Of a stretch of 32,598 nt of DNA, positions 21,473 to 32,598 are shown piece by piece (within the stretch, counting starts at the first letter, position 1; every line of letters begins with the position of its first letter). Made by a program: the position numbers and the translations under genes. This DNA is from Chloroflexi bacterium HGW-Chloroflexi-1 (GTDB lineage: Bacteria; Chloroflexota; Anaerolineae; CG2-30-64-16), in the NCBI GenBank assembly GCA_002842085.1, contig PHCA01000004.1, positions 1-32,598 of the forward strand, given 5' to 3'. Under the pieces are notes generated by a model. That model was not told where the DNA came from, did not search any database, and saw nothing but the letters and a program-made list of their open reading frames with translations.

Positions 21473-24025
21473 CTACTGAGACTCCGCCGGCGCCGGTTGA
21501 TCCCCGGGCAGATCGGGCTCGCCGGGCGGCGTGTCTTCCGGCGCTTGGGATGGCTCCTCTCGTGGCCTGGCTTCGGTCTTTTCTTCGCCCCCGTCGTTCT
21601 TCTCCGGCCGGCCGAACCGCTGTAGTTTCTCGGCCAGCTCCCGCAATTGGCGGTCCACCCGGCCGTTGACCGTGTCGGGCGGGTAGGCGCCGGCGGGGTC
21701 GCGCTCGCCGGCCGGCACGCCAGTCAAGATCGCGATCCCCTCGTCCACGGTGCGCACCGGGTAGATGTGGAACACGCCCTGCGCCACCGCCTCGACCACG
21801 TCCTCCCGCAGCATCAAGTGGGGCACGTTGGCCGCGGGCAGGATGATCCCCTGATCGCCGGTGAGCCCGCCCGGCATCGCCCGGCAAACGTCGAAGAAAC
21901 CCTCGATTTTGGTCGTCGCGCCGCCGATCGCCTGAATTTCGCCGCGCTGGTTCACGGAGCCCGTGACGGCGATGGCCTGCTTGATCGACAGCTCCGACAA
22001 GCTGGAAAGCAGCGCGTACAGCTCGGTGGAGGACGCGCTGTCGCCGTCGACCCCTTCGTAGGACTGCTCGAACGCGATGCTGGCCGACAGGCTGAGGGGC
22101 TTGTCTTGTGCAAAACGCCCACCCAAAAAACCGGATAGGATCAGCACGCCTTTGTCGTGAATGCGCCCGCTGAGCTTGACCTCCCGCTCGATGTTGATCA
22201 CGCCCGCGCGGCCCTGGAAGGTTCGGGCGGTGATGCGACTTGGCCGGCCGAACGCGTAGTCGCCCAGCTCGAGCACTGCCAGTCCGTTGACCTGGCCCAC
22301 CACCGCGCCCTGCGTGTCCACCATGATAGTGCCATCGGTGATCATCTCGCGCACCCACTCCTCGAACTGGTTGGAACGGTAGATCCGCTCGTCGATGGCC
22401 CGGGCCACGTCCTCCGCGGTCACCAGGTCCCGCCCGACGTGTTGCGCCCAGAAGGCGGCTTCCCGCACGATGTCGTTCACGTGGGCGAAGCGGGTGGTCA
22501 GCTTACGCTGGTCCTCCACCAGCCGGCCACTGTACTCGATCACCTTGCCCACCGCGCTGATGTCGAAATGGGGCAGCCCCTCCTCCGCGCAGCGGCTGCG
22601 GATGAACTGGACGATCTTCGCTTCGTTCTGCGGCGTCCATTCCATCTCCACGGCAAAATCGGCCCGCACCTTGAAGAGCTTCTCGAACTGTTCGTCGTAG
22701 GCGTAAAGCAGATAGTACGTGTTCGGATCACCGATCAGCACCACCTTGACGTCCAGCGGGATCGGCTCGGGGGTCAGTGTCGTGGTCGCGAGCACACCCA
22801 GTCGCTGGCCGGGATCCTCGATGCGGATGCGGCCGTGGCGCAAAGCCTGCTTGAGCGCTTCCCAGGCCAGTGGCTGGCGCAGCAGCACCCGCGCGTCCAG
22901 CACCAGATAGCCACCGTTGGCCCGGTGGAGCGCGCCGGCCTTGATCAAGCGGTAGTCGGTCACCAGAGTACCGAACTCAGCGCGCTGTTCGACCCGGCCG
23001 ATGAGATTGATGTAGGTCGGGTTGGTTTCCAACACGACCGGCGCGCCTTGCAGGTCTTTGTTATCAACGATGACGTTCAGCCGGTAGCGATCGTAGGGGG
23101 AACCAGCCTGCGGCCGGAGCCAGGGCGGCACGCGGCCGGCATTCGCGTCCCCTTCCTCAGCCGCCTCGCCCGGATTGGTCTTGAAGTCATCTGTACGCGC
23201 GGCGATGTGCGCCTCCATGCCCGTCAGGTAAGCGATCACGTCCGGCCAGTTGGCGTACCCCTCGCTCAGCTTCTCGAAAAACGGCCGGATAGCGGCGGCG
23301 GCGATCTCCTGATCCAGACTGTTCAAACGAGCCTGGGCCGCCGCTTCCAACTCCTGAATCTGCCGCATGGTGCGTTCCAGCGACTCCTGCAAAGCCTGCC
23401 CGCGCTCGCCAAATGCCTCCTGTTCCGCAGCCGACAACGCCTGAAACTGCTCCTGGGTCAGCGGCTGGCCATCCTTCACCGGTGCGACCACCAGGCCCAT
23501 GGGCGTGCGCACCAGCGAGAAACCCTGCGCCCGCACGAACGCGTCCAACTCCCGGAAGCGCTCAGTGCGCTGGCCATCCAGCTCCCGCCCCAGCGCGCGA
23601 CGATGTTCGGCGTACTGGTCGCTGGCGAAGGCTTTCGCTAACGCGTCGGCCACCTGAGCCAGCAATCCGTCCACCTGGTCGCGCAGCCGGCACCCTCCGC
23701 CTGGCGGCAGCCGTAGCGCGCGCGGCTGATCCCCGTCCACCAGGTTGTGGGCATAACCCCAATCGGACGGCACAGCGCGGGTCGCGGCCTTGCGTTCCAG
23801 GAAATGAGTAATGAAGCTGGTCTTGCCAGCGCCGGCCGGCCCCATCGCGTAAACGTTGTAGCCGGGATAGGGGATCTCGATCCCGAACTCGATGGCCCGC
23901 GCGGCGCGCTCCTGGCCGATGATCCCTGTCAGGTCGGGCGCCCCGGCAGTGGAGTTGAAGTCGAATTGTGTTGTATCACACCGACGGCGCAACTGCTCGG
24001 CGGTGAGCTCGCTGGGTTGGGTCAT
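21473..24025 (-). CDS. Lon-related ATP-dependent protease (LonB-like)
   Basis: True start at ATG 24025 (AGGAG eight bases upstream), giving 850 residues. The longer ORF in the track only adds translated repeats. Order: N-terminal LonB-type region with Walker A 'GPAGAGKTSF' (62-71), a long coiled-coil insert (~130-300), the rest of the AAA+ module including 'GALHRANGGYLVLDA', then a Lon protease domain with the catalytic Ser in 'DGDSASSTELYALL' (~664) and Lys in 'GGATTKIEGFFD' (~706). A Pro- and acid-rich tail closes the chain. No transmembrane segment is evident, unlike archaeal LonB. It should degrade damaged or regulatory proteins using ATP. Upstream lies a large heptanucleotide array. Confidence 0.92.
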   Translation of the reverse strand: MTQPSELTAEQLRRRCDTTQFDFNSTAGAPDLTGIIGQERAARAIEFGIEIPYPGYNVYAMGPAGAGKTSFITHFLERKAATRAVPSDWGYAHNLVDGDQPRALRLPPGGGCRLRDQVDGLLAQVADALAKAFASDQYAEHRRALGRELDGQRTERFRELDAFVRAQGFSLVRTPMGLVVAPVKDGQPLTQEQFQALSAAEQEAFGERGQALQESLERTMRQIQELEAAAQARLNSLDQEIAAAAIRPFFEKLSEGYANWPDVIAYLTGMEAHIAARTDDFKTNPGEAAEEGDANAGRVPPWLRPQAGSPYDRYRLNVIVDNKDLQGAPVVLETNPTYINLIGRVEQRAEFGTLVTDYRLIKAGALHRANGGYLVLDARVLLRQPLAWEALKQALRHGRIRIEDPGQRLGVLATTTLTPEPIPLDVKVVLIGDPNTYYLLYAYDEQFEKLFKVRADFAVEMEWTPQNEAKIVQFIRSRCAEEGLPHFDISAVGKVIEYSGRLVEDQRKLTTRFAHVNDIVREAAFWAQHVGRDLVTAEDVARAIDERIYRSNQFEEWVREMITDGTIMVDTQGAVVGQVNGLAVLELGDYAFGRPSRITARTFQGRAGVINIEREVKLSGRIHDKGVLILSGFLGGRFAQDKPLSLSASIAFEQSYEGVDGDSASSTELYALLSSLSELSIKQAIAVTGSVNQRGEIQAIGGATTKIEGFFDVCRAMPGGLTGDQGIILPAANVPHLMLREDVVEAVAQGVFHIYPVRTVDEGIAILTGVPAGERDPAGAYPPDTVNGRVDRQLRELAEKLQRFGRPEKNDGGEEKTEARPREEPSQAPEDTPPGEPDLPGDQPAPAESQ

Positions 24026-24039
24026 GGATGTTGCTCCTG

Positions 24040-24384
24040 GCGAATGGCGAATGACAAAGGGCAAAGGGCAAAGGGCGAATGGCAAATGGCAAATGGCAAA
24101 TGGCAAATGGCAAATGCAAATGGCAAATGGCAAATGGCACATGGCACATGGCACATGGCAAAGGGCAAAGGGCAAAGGGCAAAGGGCGAATGGCAAATGG
24201 CAAAGGGCAAATGGCAAAGGGCAAAGGGCAAAGGGCAAAGGGCAAAGGGCAAAGGGCAAAGGGCGAATGGCAAAGGGCAAATGGCAAATGGCAAATGGCA
24301 AATGGCAAATGGCAAAGGGCAAATGGCAAATGGCAAATAGCAAAGGGCAAAGGGCAAAGGGCAAAGGGCGAATGGCAAATCGGC
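24040..24384. repeat. Heptanucleotide array (AAATGGC/AAAGGGC), about 48 units
   Basis: About 345 bp of 7-bp units, chiefly AAATGGC and AAAGGGC with some GAATGGC, AAATGCA and ACATGGC variants. Because 7 is not a multiple of 3 but every frame cycles through the same 21-bp period, all three minus frames stay open as (FAICHLP)n and plus frames as (MANGKWQ)n. It begins 15 bp upstream of the Lon-related ATG, so the natural promoter is displaced or lies within the repeat. Confidence 0.95.
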
Positions 24385-24398
24385 GAAGTGCTGGCGAC

Positions 24399-24440
24399 TG
24401 ATGGCTGATAGCTGATAGCTGATAGCTGATAGCTGATAGC
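24399..24440. repeat. Second heptanucleotide array (TGATAGC), six units
   Basis: TGATGGC followed by five TGATAGC, exactly 42 bp, 14 bp beyond the larger array but with an unrelated unit. Confidence 0.92.
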
Positions 24441-24547
24441 TGGAAACCATTGTAGCACCAGGCGCACGGTAGGGCAAAGGGCGGGGTTGGGCGAGAGAAA
24501 TTGGATGCCACGCGGGGGCATATCTGAGGCGAGAAACTCCGGCGCGC

Positions 24548-24720
24548 GTCATGCTGAGCGGGTCGACCGGCCAACGATCGTTGCAACGAACGTCCAGCGA
24601 AGCATCTCCTGTTCGAAGTTTCTGAGCAGCGGGTTAGTCCCGTGAAGTCCATTGCGGCAAGCAGCCAGCGAAGCATGTCCTGAGCAATGTCCTGAGCTGG
24701 TCGAAGGGTGAAATCGAAGG
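24548..24720. repeat. Intergenic dispersed-repeat sequence
   Basis: 'GTCATGCTGAGCGGGTCGAC' opens a stretch with two CCAGCGAAGCAT(C/G)TCCTG motifs (24594 and 24668) and a repeated ATGTCCTGAGC; the general form GTCATGCTGAGC...GCGAAGCATCTC is a familiar dispersed repeat of bacterial genomes. No gene or promoter was recognised between 24441 and 24750. Confidence 0.5.
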
Positions 24721-24750
24721 GGGTCTCGCCGTGGCAAGGAGATTCCAAGG

Positions 24751-26184: not shown

Positions 26185-26757
26185 ATGCCTGAGACGAAGT
26201 CGAATGACGATGTGGTGATCGTTGAGTACGATCCGCGCTGGCCAGCGGCCTACCAGGCCGAGGCCGCGTTGATCGCCCAGACGCTGGGGCACAATCACAT
26301 CGAGATGCACCACGTCGGTAGCACGGCGGTCCCGGGCCTGAGCGCCAAGCCCACTATCGATATTTTGGTGGCCGTCGCGCATTTCGCGCCCGTGGAGGAA
26401 TACGACTGTCGCCTGGCGCCGATCGGCTACCAGCACGGCTCCCACGAAAACGACGCGGTCCGGCTGTTCTTCCGGAAAGGCGCGGCGCATAGTCACCATC
26501 TCCACATCGTGGAGCACGGCAGTTGGGAACATTGTCGCCATCTCTTGTTCCGCGATTACCTGCGCACCCATCCCGAGACGGCCCAGGAATATGAGCGGTT
26601 GAAACGCCGGTTGGCCGACCAGTTCGGGGAAGATCGGGCGACCTACACCGCGAGCAAGGCCGATTTCATCTTTTCGGTGATCGCCGCCGCCGCGCAGGAA
26701 CATTCGGTGAACCCCGAAGGCTTCGGTGGGTGTCCCGGTTCGGAAGGGCTGGAATGA
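26185..26757 (+). CDS. GrpB family protein (UPF0157 nucleotidyltransferase fold)
   Basis: I start at ATG 26185 ('MPETKSNDDVVIVEYDPRW'), preceded by GAGGT, because the extra 31 residues in the track show no family similarity; 190 residues. The signature 'HHVGSTAVPGLSAKPTIDIL' is the GrpB/UPF0157 nucleotidyltransferase-like motif (GSTS/AVPGL..KP.IDI). 'HHLHIVEHGSWEHCRHLLFRDYLRTHP' is the second conserved block. Substrates of the family are not established; fusion with CoaE occurs in some bacteria. The 3' end is crossed on the other strand by the extended metallophosphoesterase frame. Single gene with no obvious own promoter. Confidence 0.9.
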   Translation: MPETKSNDDVVIVEYDPRWPAAYQAEAALIAQTLGHNHIEMHHVGSTAVPGLSAKPTIDILVAVAHFAPVEEYDCRLAPIGYQHGSHENDAVRLFFRKGAAHSHHLHIVEHGSWEHCRHLLFRDYLRTHPETAQEYERLKRRLADQFGEDRATYTASKADFIFSVIAAAAQEHSVNPEGFGGCPGSEGLE

Positions 26758-27791
26758 TGTCGACGAGCAAGCGCACCCCAACCAGGTTTCTCTGAGAAAC
26801 CTGGTTTCTGAATTTCCCGGCCCCTGACATCGACGACGAAGATATCCGGCTGGCAGAGGATACGGAACCGCGGCATCGCCGCGCCGACGCCCGCGGTGAC
26901 GAACAGATGGGTGTGCTGGCCGGGGGCGCCGAAGACGAAATGACCGTGATCGAACCGCCGACCGTAGCTCGACGGCACGATCACCGGGCCCAGCAGTGGC
27001 AATTTGATCTGCCCAGCGTGGTAATGCCCGGCGAAGACAGCCGCCATCCCTGAGTCGCGCAGGGCGTAGATGTTGTCGGGGGTGTGCGTGAGGACCAGCC
27101 CGATTTCGCCGGCTGCGAGGTGCGGCGGTTGCCAACGCCGACCGCGCCACGGGTACTCGTAGCCGAAGATGCGCAGCGCGGCGCCGGGCCCAACGGCAAC
27201 TCGCAGCGGGTGTTCATCGAGCAGGGTGATCGCCGATGCGCGCACGGCCGCAGCAACTTGCGCCGCGCCGGCCCAGTAGTCGTGGTTCCCCAGGATCGCG
27301 AACGTCCCGAGCCGCCCTTTGGCCGCGGACAGGATGTCGGGGAGCAGGGGCGCGTACTCGGCCTTTGTCACGAAGTCGCCGGTGTGGAAGATGAAGTCCG
27401 GGTGGCTCGCGGCGACCCGCGCCATGACCGCGCGGTAGTAATCCGGCGGCAGATGGCTGTTGACGTGAAAATCGCTCACGTGGGCGATCCGGAAGTCGGG
27501 GCCGGGCCAATCGGGGCAGACCAGCTCGTAGCGTGCAACGACCAGATCGGTGGTCGTGACCGGCGCGCGCAGCCAGCCCCTGGCATTTTCGGTGACCACC
27601 GGCGGCGCGCCTCTGTGCCGCTTGCGGATGACCAGCCGCCGGACTTCCCCCAGCGCCACAACCGCCAACGCGGCGACCGGCCCCCACACCCACCGCGTCC
27701 CGGCCGTCACGTACCCGAAGGCCGCCGACCCCAGCCCGACGGCGGCCATGCTCCCCACGATGATCCACAGCTTGCGCCGGCCATCCCGCAT
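26643..27791 (-). CDS. Membrane-associated metallophosphoesterase (YkuE/YaeI-like) with altered ends
   Basis: 382 residues from ATG 27791. Calcineurin-type metal-site motifs are complete: 'AHVSDFHV' (103-110), 'HTGDF' (136-140), 'LGNHDYW' (167-173), 'LTHTPDN' (234-240) and 'FAGHYHAGQ' (253-261). An N-terminal membrane helix spans ~8-29. Relatives of this plan act on phosphoesters at the membrane, including UDP-DAG-type lipids in YkuE-like enzymes; the substrate here is not known. The frame is open 30 more codons upstream with a second hydrophobic helix ('LFLALAAGACIFLFLLNRY') but no ATG, GTG or TTG start, so the original start seems lost. The last ~55 residues come from a palindromic repeat and antisense of the GrpB gene, so that tail is not native. 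Confidence 0.82.
   Translation of the reverse strand: MRDGRRKLWIIVGSMAAVGLGSAAFGYVTAGTRWVWGPVAALAVVALGEVRRLVIRKRHRGAPPVVTENARGWLRAPVTTTDLVVARYELVCPDWPGPDFRIAHVSDFHVNSHLPPDYYRAVMARVAASHPDFIFHTGDFVTKAEYAPLLPDILSAAKGRLGTFAILGNHDYWAGAAQVAAAVRASAITLLDEHPLRVAVGPGAALRIFGYEYPWRGRRWQPPHLAAGEIGLVLTHTPDNIYALRDSGMAAVFAGHYHAGQIKLPLLGPVIVPSSYGRRFDHGHFVFGAPGQHTHLFVTAGVGAAMPRFRILCQPDIFVVDVRGREIQKPGFSEKPGWGALARRHHSSPSEPGHPPKPSGFTECSCAAAAITEKMKSALLAV
26780..26806. repeat. Perfect 13-bp inverted repeat between convergent genes
   Basis: AACCAGGTTTCTC and its complement around a single T (26793). It lies between the GrpB stop and the natural end of the metallophosphoesterase and encodes 'KPGFSEKPG' in the latter's frame. 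Confidence 0.88.
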
Positions 27792-27877: not shown

Positions 27878-28030
27878 CTAACTGCCCGTATGCACGGGAA
27901 CTGTAATCGATATTTGGCGCCCTTCATGCCAGAGCGTTAGATGGCTCCCTGATTGGCGATCTTCGACAAAACCTTGAGCTTTCAGGAATTGCACCAAGTC
28001 ACGAGCCGTCACCTGAGGCATGCGCGTCAT
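27878..28030 (-). pseudogene. hicA: HicA toxin, C-terminally truncated
   Basis: ATG 28030 overlaps the HicB stop (ATGA); an internal ATG at 28021 gives the usual 'MPQVTARDLVQFL' start. The 50-residue product has the HicA dsRBD-like fold signature 'FLKAQGFVEDRQSGSHLTLW', including the catalytic His in GSH, and 'ISITVPVHTG', but ends there with TAG. Full HicA proteins continue with a K/RD...G.L..IL helix of ~20-30 residues. The cut lies exactly where the upstream open frame of the metallophosphoesterase begins, so one deletion probably removed both the hicA tail and that gene's start. It was not listed in the ORF track. Residual RNase activity is doubtful. Confidence 0.82.
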
Positions 28031-28266
28031 GCTGGCACTCCGACCGATAGGGTCTCCACGTGCACCAGGCGTCGATGTTGCGGCACTGGTTGATTATGCT
28101 CTTGCAGGACTGCGATGTGCTGCTGAATCGCGAGGCGTATGTTGCGACTGGTCTCTTCGATGGTTGAGCCGTTGCTGAAACATCCCGGCAGGCTTGGGCT
28201 ATAGGCAAAATAGCCCTCGTCTTCCGGTTCTTTCTCGATGATAATCTCGAAATCATAGAACTTCAT
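28027..28266 (-). CDS. hicB: HicB antitoxin
   Basis: ATG 28266 (GGGAG nine bases upstream) gives 79 residues; the track's longer start at 28356 lies beyond the likely -10 region. 'EGYFAYSPSLPGCFSNGSTI' is the HicB partial RNase H-like fold signature, followed by 'EETSRNIRLAIQQHI'. No DNA-binding domain is obvious at the C-terminus; in such short HicBs regulation relies on complex formation. The stop overlaps hicA, giving the order hicB-hicA. Since its toxin is truncated, the antitoxin may be free of selection. Confidence 0.87.
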   Translation of the reverse strand: MKFYDFEIIIEKEPEDEGYFAYSPSLPGCFSNGSTIEETSRNIRLAIQQHIAVLQEHNQPVPQHRRLVHVETLSVGVPA

Positions 28267-28364
28267 TACGTCATCTCCCTGATCTTGGATTGCCCTTCGA
28301 CGATCGACCGCGTCATCACGTTTTCCAGCACTTGATCCACCCTCTTCTCGACACAACTGCCCGG

Positions 28365-28463: not shown

Positions 28464-29051
28464 CTACATCAACTCGAAAAACGCGGCGGCGCCCAGCTTG
28501 GGGACCATCTGGCGGGCCAGGCGGTCTACCGGCCCCGGCGACCCGATGTCGATCCAGTCGTCGATGCTGCCCAGGTAGCACCAGCGTTCGGCGCGGTAAG
28601 TGCGCCGTTCTTCGTCGCTCAGGATGAAGCGCAACACCGGCGTGAACTGTCCATGCTGCTCGATTTCATCCCGGATGCGCTGATCCAGGCCGGCCATGAG
28701 CGGCCCGACCTCCCCCAGTGCCGAGATCAGGTCATCCGCATCCGGCCCGACCCGCTCGTAGACCTCGATCCGGTCATGTTTGACGCGGACGCGGTAGTTG
28801 CCAGGTTTGCGATGGCGCACCACCGCGGCCTCCACGGCAGCCACCTCTTCCGGGCGGATCAGCATCGGGCGGTCCTTTTCCAGGAAGACGAGGCCGTTGA
28901 CGCTTTCGCCGATTCTAAAACCTTCGGGGATCGCCTCGACCGGTTCGCCCTTCTGCGCGCGCGCGAAATAGTAGCGCGGCTTGCCGGTCTTGGTGACGCT
29001 ACGGCAAAGGATGAGGGTGACGCCTTTGCGGTTGGTGTAGGTTATGGACAT
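28464..29051 (-). CDS. Uncharacterised protein
   Basis: 195 residues; I do not recognise a named family. The start ATG 29051 has an AGGAGC site. The N-terminal third ('ITYTNRKGVTLILCRSVTKT', 'RYYFARAQKGEPVEAIPEGF') is beta-rich and reads as if the protein describes or handles a short fixed ligand; the middle 'NYRVRVKHDRIEVYERVG' is a further beta pair; the C-terminal half is helical ('DQRIRDEIEQHGQFTPVLRF'). No signal peptide or membrane segment. A 35-residue paralogous stretch is encoded at 30201-30344, and a regulator remnant with possible operator repeats sits upstream, so these three may once have formed an accessory unit. Confidence 0.6.
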   Translation of the reverse strand: MSITYTNRKGVTLILCRSVTKTGKPRYYFARAQKGEPVEAIPEGFRIGESVNGLVFLEKDRPMLIRPEEVAAVEAAVVRHRKPGNYRVRVKHDRIEVYERVGPDADDLISALGEVGPLMAGLDQRIRDEIEQHGQFTPVLRFILSDEERRTYRAERWCYLGSIDDWIDIGSPGPVDRLARQMVPKLGAAAFFELM

Positions 29052-29167: not shown

Positions 29168-30204
29168 TTATAGAGGTGGACTGTGCAAGATATAGCGTGC
29201 CCAGCGACGTTTGCCCTGTCTATCGAGCCAGCCTTCTTCTGTCAGACGCTGCAGAATGCGCGTTGCAGTCTTAGTGGAAACCCGCAGCACTACCGAGACA
29301 TCCCGATTCACAATGAATCCCTGCTGCTGCAGCAAGGGTAACAACGGCGCAAGATCGCCTGGCATGGCCCGCTCTTCAAGCGGAGGCTCGATAATCTCAT
29401 ACACTCGGCCGCCCTTCCGGGTTAGACGCGCTACCTGTTTGCTGATCAGATCCTTAATGGCGCTAGAAGCCCCGTAGATGTCCGGACCGACAAGCTTCTG
29501 GAACTCTCTGCTGGTGAAATGCCCCCCATGTGCTTTCGCGTAGGCCAAGATACGCTTCTGGTCTCCCGTCAGGTTCCTGTTCTCAAACCGCTGTAGCCAT
29601 ATTAGCGTCTGCGGGTCATAAACGGGTTGGTTCAACAGGGTCACTTGCACAACGAACGTGCTGACGAGATCGAACCGGGGCGGATAGAAACCTTCGCGCT
29701 CCATCACGTCGAACATCCGGAGGATACCTTCTCCCAATTCGCGCATGTATCCCAGGGCTACCAGGACACGCACGATCAGCGGATTGCGCGAGAGATGGAC
29801 GCCCCTTCTGAGATTGAGGTCCTCAATGGTGACTGGTGTAGGCGGCAGACCGGGGCTGTGGATTTCCAGCCGATCGTCAAACATGGATACTTCGATGCCA
29901 AGCCCCTGAATGCTGTAATCTCGGTGAGCGATAGCATTGACGATGGCCTCTTGCCAGGCGAAGGTGGGGTATTCCAGACGCTCGGTGAAAAAGAGATCCT
30001 GCTGTCCTCGATGCCGATCACCAACTCGCCGCCATCGGCGTTTGCCATCGCAGAGAGGGTCGCGGCCACGTCGCGAGCGATGTCAGCGGCTCTACGATGC
30101 CGCCATGTTCCGCGGCTGCGATCGAAGGCCGACTTGCGCTCGAAAAACTGCCCCTCCGGCTGGGAGGCCCATCGGAACAGGATTTCCATCGGGACTGTGC
30201 TCAT
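29168..30204 (-). pseudogene. AlbA_2/Schlafen-type ATP-binding transcriptional regulator, deleted and frameshifted
   Basis: The N-terminal part from ATG 30204 reads 'ILFRWASQPEGQFFERKSAF' and 'VAATLSAMANADGGELVIGI', the AlbA_2 DNA-binding domain. In the track it then runs out of frame. At about 30000 the other frame takes over with 'LFFTERLEYPTFAWQEAIVNAIAHRDY', the start of the HATPase-like domain (with the N..HRD box), and continues through two winged-helix regions ('HFTSREFQKLVGPDIYGASS', 'STKTATRILQRLTEEGWLDR'). Normally ~150-200 residues separate these two blocks, so there is an internal deletion as well as a frameshift. The second half could still be made from ATG 29884 as a shorter regulator. 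ATGA-coupled to the small ORF upstream. Confidence 0.75.
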
Positions 30205-30344
30205 TTCTTCCTCTCCACAACCGCCACTTCGAACACGACGCCGTTGACGCCTTCGCCGATTCTAAAACCTGCGGGGATCGCCTCGACCGGCTCACCTTTT
30301 GGATCGCGGGCGAAGTATACTGGTCGGAAATCAAACGAGTGCAT
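30201..30344 (-). CDS. 47-residue ORF, paralogous to part of the protein at 28464-29051
   Basis: Too short for the ORF track. 'YFARDPKGEPVEAIPAGFRI' matches 'YFARAQKGEPVEAIPEGFRI' of the 195-residue protein almost exactly, followed by 'GEGVNGVVF' against 'GESVNGLVF'. Its TGA overlaps the next ATG (ATGA), so it was translated with the AlbA_2 regulator. Either a minimal domain on its own or a remnant of a second full copy; the unrelated first eight residues favour a remnant. Function unknown. Confidence 0.6.
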   Translation of the reverse strand: MHSFDFRPVYFARDPKGEPVEAIPAGFRIGEGVNGVVFEVAVVERKK

Positions 30345-30358
30345 TAGAAGCCAGAACC

Positions 30359-30420
30359 GCAATGACACGGCGGCTGAGTAGTTACGGTTTTTTCACCTTG
30401 TCACCTTGTCACCTTGTCAA
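30359..30420. repeat. MITE right end plus 8-bp repeat
   Basis: 30359-30385 is a 27-bp exact copy of the right end of the element at 2913-3047, followed by TTTTTT and three CACCTTGT units of the 8-bp family, which enter the 3' end of the fusion gene at 30401. Confidence 0.8.
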
Positions 30421-32113
30421 TGGTGGGCACCTCATACTCGATCTGTAGGCCCCAGTCTGGATCAGCGTAGCCGCCGTAATGCTCGAATTCCCAGTCGCTG
30501 CCCGCGACGCGATAGCCGCGCGCCGGGTCGACCGGCGCGCCGTCGACGTGCAATACGCCATCCCGCATCGTCCCGCCGCTGAGATGAAGCAGGCCCCGTT
30601 CCTGGCCGCGCAGCGTGTGCGGCCGTTCGGCCGCGAAGGCCGGATCCAGGCCCTTCGCCAGCAGCGCGCTCAACTGCGCGCCCGGCAGCGTGGCGATCGC
30701 CGGGTTGGCCGTGGAGCTACAGACGTCCCACAACGTCCCCCGGCGCAGCGGTCCGGCCGGCAGCGGCCCGGTGAACGCCTGGCCGGCCGCCACGACCGCG
30801 ATCTCGCCGCCCATCCGCTCCCGCAACATATCCGCCATCAGGTTGGCGGCCCCGCATTCGCGGTCCAGCGCAAAGTCCAGCGGCTCCGCCAGCTCGCCGA
30901 TGATCTCGTCCAGGAAACGCGCGGCCTCGGCTTCGATCACGTCGACCTCGGCCAGGACGCGCGGCGACCGGGGTGTGGCCTGTGTCACCGGGATCATCGT
31001 CGCCCGGACCACCTCCAACCGCTCGCCGTCCCAGGCCAGATCCAGCCGGCCCAGGTGTTCCGCATACTGCCCGGCCTGGGCGATCAGCACCCGGCCCACT
31101 CGCTCACCCTCCGGCAACAGGTCGTGGCTATGCGCGCCGATGATGGCCACAACGTCGTTCTGGAGCTCAGCCGCCAGCTCGCGGTCGGTTTTCAGGCTCA
31201 TGTGTGAGAGCACGATCACCGCGTCCGCGCCGTCCTGGCGCAACGCGGCGGCCAGCTCCCGGACCAGCGAGGCCGCGGGCACGGCGCTCAGATCGAAGAA
31301 CGCACTGTATTCCGGCATGTCGGCGGTCATCCCGATCAGGCCGAGACGCCAGGGGCCGGCACGCTGTTCGGGGTCAGACGCGATTTCGAGGGTGGTGGTC
31401 GGCTGCACGCCCGGCGGCAGAACGCCATCGGACATCCGCAGGTTGGCCAGCAGCAGGGGATAACGGGCTGCCCGGCCATGATCCCCGAGCACCTGGGGGC
31501 CGTAGCGCAGCCACGCGCCGTTGCCGGCCACCGCCGCGTCGCAGCCGGCCAGGTTGAGCAGCCGGTGCATGGCCGTGCCTTTGGTGAGATTGCTCAGCCG
31601 GCGGGACGGTTCCTCGATGTCCCCCGCGTCGAAGTAGAGCACAGGCACGCCCGGATTCTCAGCGCGGGTCTGCTCGACCAGCGTGGCGATGCGCGCCAGC
31701 CCCTCGACCCGGCCGTGGATGTCGTTGGTGTGCAGGATGATGAGGGCGGTCCAGAACGGGCACTCGTACATCTCAGCCAGCGCCAGGTAGTGGGCATCGT
31801 AGGCGGCCGGGCGATTCAGACGCTGCGCCAACTCGGACGCGCGCGCGTGGAGGTCGGGCGGCCTCATCAACTGCACGGGCAGGCGCAACACGGTTGTCAG
31901 GGTCGCTGGTTCGGCATCTGGAGCCATCTGACGCCGGTAGACCTGTTTGCGAACAACGGATGTAACCTCGTAGGCCCACAAAGTCGGCGCAATGACCGTC
32001 AGCTTCTGCTCTTGCCATTCGGCCCAAAGCGCCCGCGCCAGGGAGGCGTCCGGCTCATCGAGGAAGACTCGCTTGATTGCCAGGCCGGCGTCAGCGCAAA
32101 CCCAGGATTTCAT
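30401..32113 (-). CDS. In-frame fusion: VapC PIN toxin (N) and 5'-nucleotidase-like metallophosphatase (C)
   Basis: 570 residues. Residues 1-~122 are a PIN toxin: D8 ('VCADAGLAIK'), E49 ('WAYEV') and D106 ('AAYDAHYLALAE') of the acidic site are present, but the chain leaves the family at 'CPFWTA', just before the fourth acidic residue (TAD). Residue ~124 on is a 5'-nucleotidase/UshA-type enzyme from its very first strand: 'ILHTNDIHGR' (126-135), 'DAGD' (162-165), 'SHMS' (303-306), 'GAHSH' (326-330) and a C-terminal nucleotide-binding domain. GNHE of the family reads GNGA (197-200). No signal peptide. The last six residues derive from an 8-bp repeat. It follows a Phd antitoxin with 23 bp overlap. 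A deletion is the likely cause; a functional fusion is less likely. Confidence 0.85.
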   Translation of the reverse strand: MKSWVCADAGLAIKRVFLDEPDASLARALWAEWQEQKLTVIAPTLWAYEVTSVVRKQVYRRQMAPDAEPATLTTVLRLPVQLMRPPDLHARASELAQRLNRPAAYDAHYLALAEMYECPFWTALIILHTNDIHGRVEGLARIATLVEQTRAENPGVPVLYFDAGDIEEPSRRLSNLTKGTAMHRLLNLAGCDAAVAGNGAWLRYGPQVLGDHGRAARYPLLLANLRMSDGVLPPGVQPTTTLEIASDPEQRAGPWRLGLIGMTADMPEYSAFFDLSAVPAASLVRELAAALRQDGADAVIVLSHMSLKTDRELAAELQNDVVAIIGAHSHDLLPEGERVGRVLIAQAGQYAEHLGRLDLAWDGERLEVVRATMIPVTQATPRSPRVLAEVDVIEAEAARFLDEIIGELAEPLDFALDRECGAANLMADMLRERMGGEIAVVAAGQAFTGPLPAGPLRRGTLWDVCSSTANPAIATLPGAQLSALLAKGLDPAFAAERPHTLRGQERGLLHLSGGTMRDGVLHVDGAPVDPARGYRVAGSDWEFEHYGGYADPDWGLQIEYEVPTIDKVTR

Positions 32114-32426
32114 CGTCGCGCTCCTCGCGTAGCTCGCGCAGTATCTCAGTGGAGTCTCTGGGCTGGATACCTTGCTCTTGACGCCAACGACAGATCTGCT
32201 CGCCTACCTGATCGGCCCTGGCCAATGCTTCACGGTAGTTGTCTTCACGGTCTGTGATCAGCCTGCCCAGGTTTTTCAAGCGCGTGAAATCATCAACCCC
32301 GATAATCGCCGCCTTGGCCTGACCGTGCGACATCAGGACGATCTGCTCGCCGCGGTAGGCCGCGCGGTTGACCAGGTCGCCTAAGTCCTGGCGCAGTTCG
32401 GTCATGCTGACTCGAATTTCACTCAT
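32091..32426 (-). CDS. Phd/YefM-family antitoxin
   Basis: 111 residues. 'VSMTELRQDLGDLVNRAAYR' and 'IVLMSHGQAKAAIIGVDDF' are the Phd/YefM DNA-binding fold; the C-terminal ~55 residues are charged helix that would bind a VapC-type toxin. ATG 32426 has an upstream GAGGGAAGG. The 3' end overlaps the VapC::nucleotidase gene by 23 bp, the classical order for a TA pair. It should neutralise the PIN part of the fusion and repress its own promoter; no clear -35/-10 pair was confirmed in the 32427-32500 region. Confidence 0.88.
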   Translation of the reverse strand: MSEIRVSMTELRQDLGDLVNRAAYRGEQIVLMSHGQAKAAIIGVDDFTRLKNLGRLITDREDNYREALARADQVGEQICRWRQEQGIQPRDSTEILRELREERDDEILGLR

Positions 32427-32499
32427 TGCACACCTTCCCTCGCGCGCGCTGTATAGTATTACCTTTCAATATTCGCGTTGATCGCGAGAATCTTCGACG

Positions 32500-32598
32500 G
32501 CGTCATTGCGAGCGGTGTTTGCGAAGCAATCCCCGATTGCCGCAATCCCCGATTGCCGCAATCCCCGATTGCCGCAATCCCCGATTGCCGCAATCCCC
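32500..32598. repeat. GTCATTGCGAG-type repeat with 16-bp tandem array, cut by the window edge
   Basis: GTCATTGCGAGCGG...GCGAAGCAAT is the same motif as inside the MITE-like element at 2943. It runs into four full copies of CCCCGATTGCCGCAAT (from 32531), and a fifth is cut off by the window end. Confidence 0.88.

Follow-up and report, generated by a model that had tools for sequence, protein, structure and literature searches.

An in-frame joint of a truncated VapC/PIN toxin and a YunD/UshA-like phosphoesterase in one draft Chloroflexota genome: a one-off rearrangement or an assembly error?

Several described systems resemble the locus analyzed here: (i) VapBC-type toxin-antitoxin (TA) systems with a Phd/YefM antitoxin share with it the gene order, the small gene overlap, the antitoxin family, and the N-terminal part of the PIN toxin, (ii) B. 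subtilis YunD (PDB 9a7h) and UshA have the same Metallophos plus 5_nucleotid_C architecture and the same metal ligands, and give the best structural match, (iii) the thiosulfohydrolase SoxB is the best NCBIfam and PDB sequence match of the nucleotidase part, and (iv) in multidomain type II TA toxins, such as those of the RelE/ParE superfamily (PMC11980606), a toxin-family domain is also joined to another domain. The locus differs from each of them. Its toxin lacks everything from the fourth acidic residue onward and continues as a different enzyme; its YunD/UshA-like part belongs to a subfamily in which the GNHE histidine is replaced, has lost the C-terminal helix, and carries an N-terminal PIN stub; identity of the nucleotidase part to SoxB in the structural match is about 21%; and, unlike in the multidomain toxins, only a stub of the toxin is present and a single genome carries the fusion. 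Assignment of the nucleotidase part to SoxB was rejected, as it scores 95.7 bits with TIGR04486 versus an equivalog cut-off of 550 bits.

The window, a 32,598-nucleotide stretch of the Chloroflexi bacterium HGW-Chloroflexi-1 draft genome, contains at positions 30401-32113 of the minus strand one uninterrupted ORF of 570 amino acids with zero internal stop codons, in which 123 residues of VapC/PIN lead directly into the first strand of a YunD/UshA-like protein. The features of the locus are as follows.

26643-27791, minus strand: metallophosphoesterase gene used as a synteny anchor
30316-30362, no strand assigned: dispersed repeat of 47 bp, present genome-wide in at least 33 near-exact copies, this one being truncated
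30393-30419, no strand assigned: array of 3.4 copies of the octamer TCACCTTG; its minus-strand reading encodes DKVTR and a stop
30419-31744, minus strand: YunD/UshA-like protein with Metallophos (PF00149) and 5_nucleotid_C (PF02872) domains, residues 124-565, supported by Foldseek
31744-31745, minus strand: joint of PIN stub and nucleotidase, 0-1 nt of microhomology versus the nearest relatives
31745-32113, minus strand: VapC/PIN toxin stub, residues 1-123, ending in FWTA
31772-31774, minus strand: in-frame ATG (M114), from which a nearly PIN-free product (MYECPFWTALIILHTND...) would be possible
32091-32426, minus strand: Phd/YefM-type antitoxin of 111 amino acids (PF02604, E 1.6e-9, above the cut-off; phd_fam TIGR01552)
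32121-32126, minus strand: Shine-Dalgarno-like GAGGAG, 7 nt upstream of the ATG that starts the toxin/fusion, read from the sequence
32443-32598, no strand assigned: dispersed repeat (TATAGTATTAC ... GTCATTGCGAGCG ... GCAATC), present genome-wide in about 40 or more copies

Overall, the locus does not look like a new form of gene control; it resembles instead a recent, one-off rearrangement, or else an error of assembly close to the end of a contig. We favor a real, recent chromosomal rearrangement of the insertion type in a repeat-rich region, with a rough probability of 0.58; the existence of the joint in the cell, through an insertion-type event or a simple deletion, appears somewhat more probable still.

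The transition between the two parts is sharp. On the PIN side, DNA similarity to a VapC relative in genome G006 (83-85% identity) ends at position 31746, and on the nucleotidase side, similarity to the closest copy, in genome G005 (74% identity for DNA and 70% for amino acids), begins at position 31744. Both matches are far above chance, with E-values down to 3e-45 for the PIN part and 5e-198 for the nucleotidase part. The joint is in frame and coincides precisely with the beginning of the conserved nucleotidase core; both of its sides are single-copy in this genome, and a search for a repeat or shared sequence at 31744-31745 revealed none, any microhomology versus the nearest relatives amounting to about 1 nt at most. 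Thus, the in-frame passage from PIN to nucleotidase described in an earlier note on this DNA is borne out by both the ORF and the switch in similarity.

A search for further PIN-5'-nucleotidase fusions, called for by the earlier note, was run at the protein level on 199 relatives, 400 genomes of the phylum, and 396 genomes of the class, three sets that overlap, and none was found; PIN relatives and nucleotidase relatives were recovered as separate genes only. A stable fusion family would call for more than one genome, and this fusion is found in one. No PIN gene lies near the nucleotidase relatives at the loci examined, no fusion was seen among the 15 best plasmid matches inspected, and viral contigs did not contain the exact sequence of the joint. 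A scan of genome contigs also yielded no fusion, the nucleotidase relatives there being from a Rubrobacter sp. LC5_2 MAG, Ktedonospora, and Firmicutes (YunD-like). The same-genus genome G001 (75% complete) has distant matches only, for either part. Plasmid matches that appear to start at query residues 75-115 were considered as candidate PIN fusions and rejected, being nucleotidase/SoxB-like proteins with 24-32% identity.

Relatives 43-63% identical to the toxin stub occur in many genomes of the class. Alignment of the stub with 11 intact relatives demonstrated that of the four acidic positions of VapC proteins (usually D, E, D, and D/N) three are kept, D8, E49, and D106, whereas the fourth and the last helix and strand of the fold are lost. 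In all aligned intact relatives, WT(A/T) is followed by D or N and then by roughly 25 additional residues; in the fusion ORF, WTA is followed by LIILHTNDIHGR instead of the PIN tail. Thus, the earlier statement that the PIN domain stops at FWTA, before its last catalytic acidic residue, was confirmed. Loss-of-function data exist for active-site residues of VapC, with lowered toxicity of H. influenzae VapC1 (PMC4229260). Together with the lost acidic position and C-terminal elements, these data make a dead toxin likely, as had been proposed, and the stub is very probably inactive as an RNase. Taken alone, it scores 21.0 bits with the Pfam family PF01850, just under the gathering score of 23.6 bits, and sequence search detected no relative of it in PDB; its dN/dS versus the G006 relative is about 0.11. 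In the AlphaFold model, confidence is low for the PIN part, as the underlying alignment lacked PIN relatives, and no conclusion was drawn from this part. The nearest relative of the stub (L034 4798-5035, in G006) is itself frame-disrupted by an internal deletion of 131 bp, and the two share a one-residue insertion (KRVFLDE) missing from the other relatives.

In the nucleotidase-like part, both Pfam domains score above their cut-offs, the dimetal-site ligands D131, H133, D165, N198, H304, H328, and H330 are invariant in the alignment of relatives, and the structure model is well folded from residue ~121, with YunD and UshA ranked first by Foldseek and SoxB also matching. The GNHE histidine is absent, GNGAWLRYG standing in its place, and other non-GNHE forms are seen in 13 relatives; the GNHExxD motif that carries the Asp-His catalytic dyad of UshA-type 5'-nucleotidases (PMC8475336) is therefore not present. 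Thus, of the label "5'-nucleotidase-like" the fold, domains, and metal ligands stand, whereas the histidine does not; we use it as a name of fold and family, and the activity may differ. The YunD/UshA-like group at loci L004-L014, L053, and L054 likewise keeps the metal ligands and lacks the GNHE histidine.

The earlier note took the nucleotidase to be complete, which did not hold. Following residue 565 (...YEVPTI), some 15-25 conserved C-terminal residues are swapped for the octamer-encoded DKVTR and a stop; the relatives run past this point (13 in one alignment and 8 in another), nearly all with a conserved helix of the LREAxEEY type, for example LREALEEYLATHRPVRV. Apart from this end, the core is without decay: 4 of 143 otherwise invariant sites are changed, compared with 14 of 153 in the G005 copy, and its dN/dS is about 0.26. 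The phosphoesterase domain of the fusion keeps its core and metal ligands, could still fold, and may be active.

Conserved gene neighborhoods indicate what should precede the nucleotidase. Its nearest relative is in G005, which belongs to the same family but to a different genus. There, the gene order is sigma factor, anti-sigma-like gene, mutM, and nucleotidase, the last overlapping the mutM end. The metallophosphoesterase gene 26643-27791 of the window shares the strand of the nucleotidase and is located downstream of it; its orthologs in G003, G004, G006, and G007 follow mutM on the same strand at a distance of 0.2-3.5 kb. Elsewhere in the genome under study, contig C409 carries the sigma factor, anti-sigma-like gene, and mutM in the G005 order and ends within mutM, at about codon 195 of 278. 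The last ~83 codons of mutM are missing from the assembly: this tail and the missing PIN tail were sought on the other contigs and neither was found, the only PIN tail elsewhere in the genome belonging to a paralog on contig C377. On the simplest reading, C409 and the contig of the window (C16) would face each other in the genome, and the toxin-antitoxin DNA would occupy the place where the mutM tail is expected.

This arrangement argues against the origin proposed earlier, a small deletion between an already adjacent vapBC and nucleotidase that left the enzyme under antitoxin control. An in-frame joint and an intact antitoxin are what such a deletion would leave, but vapC stands beside the nucleotidase in none of the relatives examined, the nearest of them (G005) has mutM there, and the linkage of mutM and the phosphoesterase in the family argues for mutM upstream, so that we consider a small deletion very unlikely.

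The same synteny is compatible with an assembly chimera. In that case, the true order would be sigma factor, anti-sigma-like gene, mutM, and nucleotidase, and assembly would have attached an unrelated vapBC contig from elsewhere in this genome to the nucleotidase start. Such a misjoin would account for C409 stopping inside mutM and for the confinement of the fusion to one genome, and a benchmark of metagenome assemblers reports 2.6 (SPAdes) to 22 (megahit) chimeric contigs per genome (PMC11261854). The joint also lies near a contig end, 854 bp from that of C16, in a draft of 419 contigs. These points, namely a single assembly, the closeness of the contig end, and mutM as the predicted immediate upstream neighbor, count against the rearrangement. 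On the other side, nothing is shared at the joint that could cause a graph misjoin, the joint is in frame exactly at the core start, its two sides are single-copy, and no alternative contig supplies either of the missing tails, of PIN or of mutM. Weighing these, we hold a chimera possible but doubtful. The chromosomal rearrangement is further favored by the far side of the joint, which bears a dispersed repeat belonging to this genome and a PIN gene most closely related to one from the same family, as well as by the dN/dS of the PIN part, the undecayed nucleotidase core, the well-folded phosphoesterase model, and the rearranged surroundings. In such an event, the antitoxin and a 3'-truncated vapC would have been joined to about codon 4 of a YunD-like metallophosphoesterase gene, at the site where the lineage carries the end of mutM. 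If real, the locus would be a snapshot of a toxin-antitoxin fragment landing in a housekeeping gene cluster, the adjoining enzyme having turned into a TA-expressed fusion whose toxin domain is dead. The case also illustrates how synteny within a family reveals joints in draft assemblies for which read-level checks are required prior to claiming a new fusion.

As expected for a VapC, an intact Phd/YefM antitoxin gene lies directly upstream of the fusion ORF and overlaps the toxin start by 23 nt; the earlier note also places an antitoxin upstream. Antitoxin homologs sit likewise upstream of the PIN relatives at loci L020-L023, L025, and L030. The dispersed repeat 32443-32598, inside which C16 ends, has a sharp edge (TATAGTATTAC) and a core (GTCATTGCGAGCG...GCGAAGCAATC), and its copies are 81-92% identical. 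Since it begins ~17 bp before the antitoxin start codon, the promoter/operator may not be the original one, and a simple scan found no sigma-70-type promoter site. Control of the fusion by the antitoxin is speculation, and the capture of a TA promoter proposed in the earlier note is hypothetical.

If the joint is real and the ORF expressed, ribosomes would start at the vapC ATG behind GAGGAG and a single 570-residue protein is the likely product, in which a presumably inactive PIN stub precedes a phosphoesterase core devoid of its C-terminal helix. Two other readings concern the product and not the joint, and their likelihoods overlap with those given above. According to the first, the locus is a decaying pseudogene, debris between repeats that yields no functional product: the nucleotidase is eroded at both ends, the neighboring SLFN/RecG-like gene is frame-split, the G006 vapC relative has its 131-bp deletion, and repeats lie on both flanks. 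The 570 stop-free codons and the conserved sites speak against this, yet a recent event would look alike; we regard decay as unlikely. According to the second, the nucleotidase is made separately from M114 (~457 amino acids), with the PIN stub as a mere leader. This ATG is in frame 10 codons before the first strand and would give an N-terminus of about the length of the relatives', but it lacks a clear Shine-Dalgarno sequence, whereas the vapC start has one at 7 nt, and such a start seems quite improbable.

The antitoxin could still bind the PIN stub of the 570-residue protein. That the joint is real and expressed, and that this binding subjects the abundance, localization, or activity of the metallophosphoesterase to the TA antitoxin, is in our view very improbable; if true, the toxin remnant would be a regulatory handle on this enzyme.

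The surroundings are visibly rearranged, with broken repeat copies, the frame-split SLFN/RecG-like gene, and a HicB-like antitoxin. The 47-bp repeat has fixed ends; its other copies continue with GCTGTCATTGCGAGCG..., which is cut off in the copy ending at 30362, and in several contigs the repeat is found about 50 bp from the contig end. The gene 29168-30204 (minus strand) encodes SLFN_AlbA_2 and RecG-C-like (HATPase_c_4) domains over two frames and looks frame-shifted. The HicB-like antitoxin gene (28027-28356, minus strand), located between the nucleotidase and the phosphoesterase, is a second TA remnant or module. An 87-bp fragment at ~30231-30317 (minus strand) is 85% identical to the hypothetical gene 28464-29051 (minus strand), which suggests a partial duplication. 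Finally, a 7-bp microsatellite, TGGCAAA in ~49 copies, occupies positions 24038-24380 in the 5' part of the ORF 21473-24748 (minus strand).
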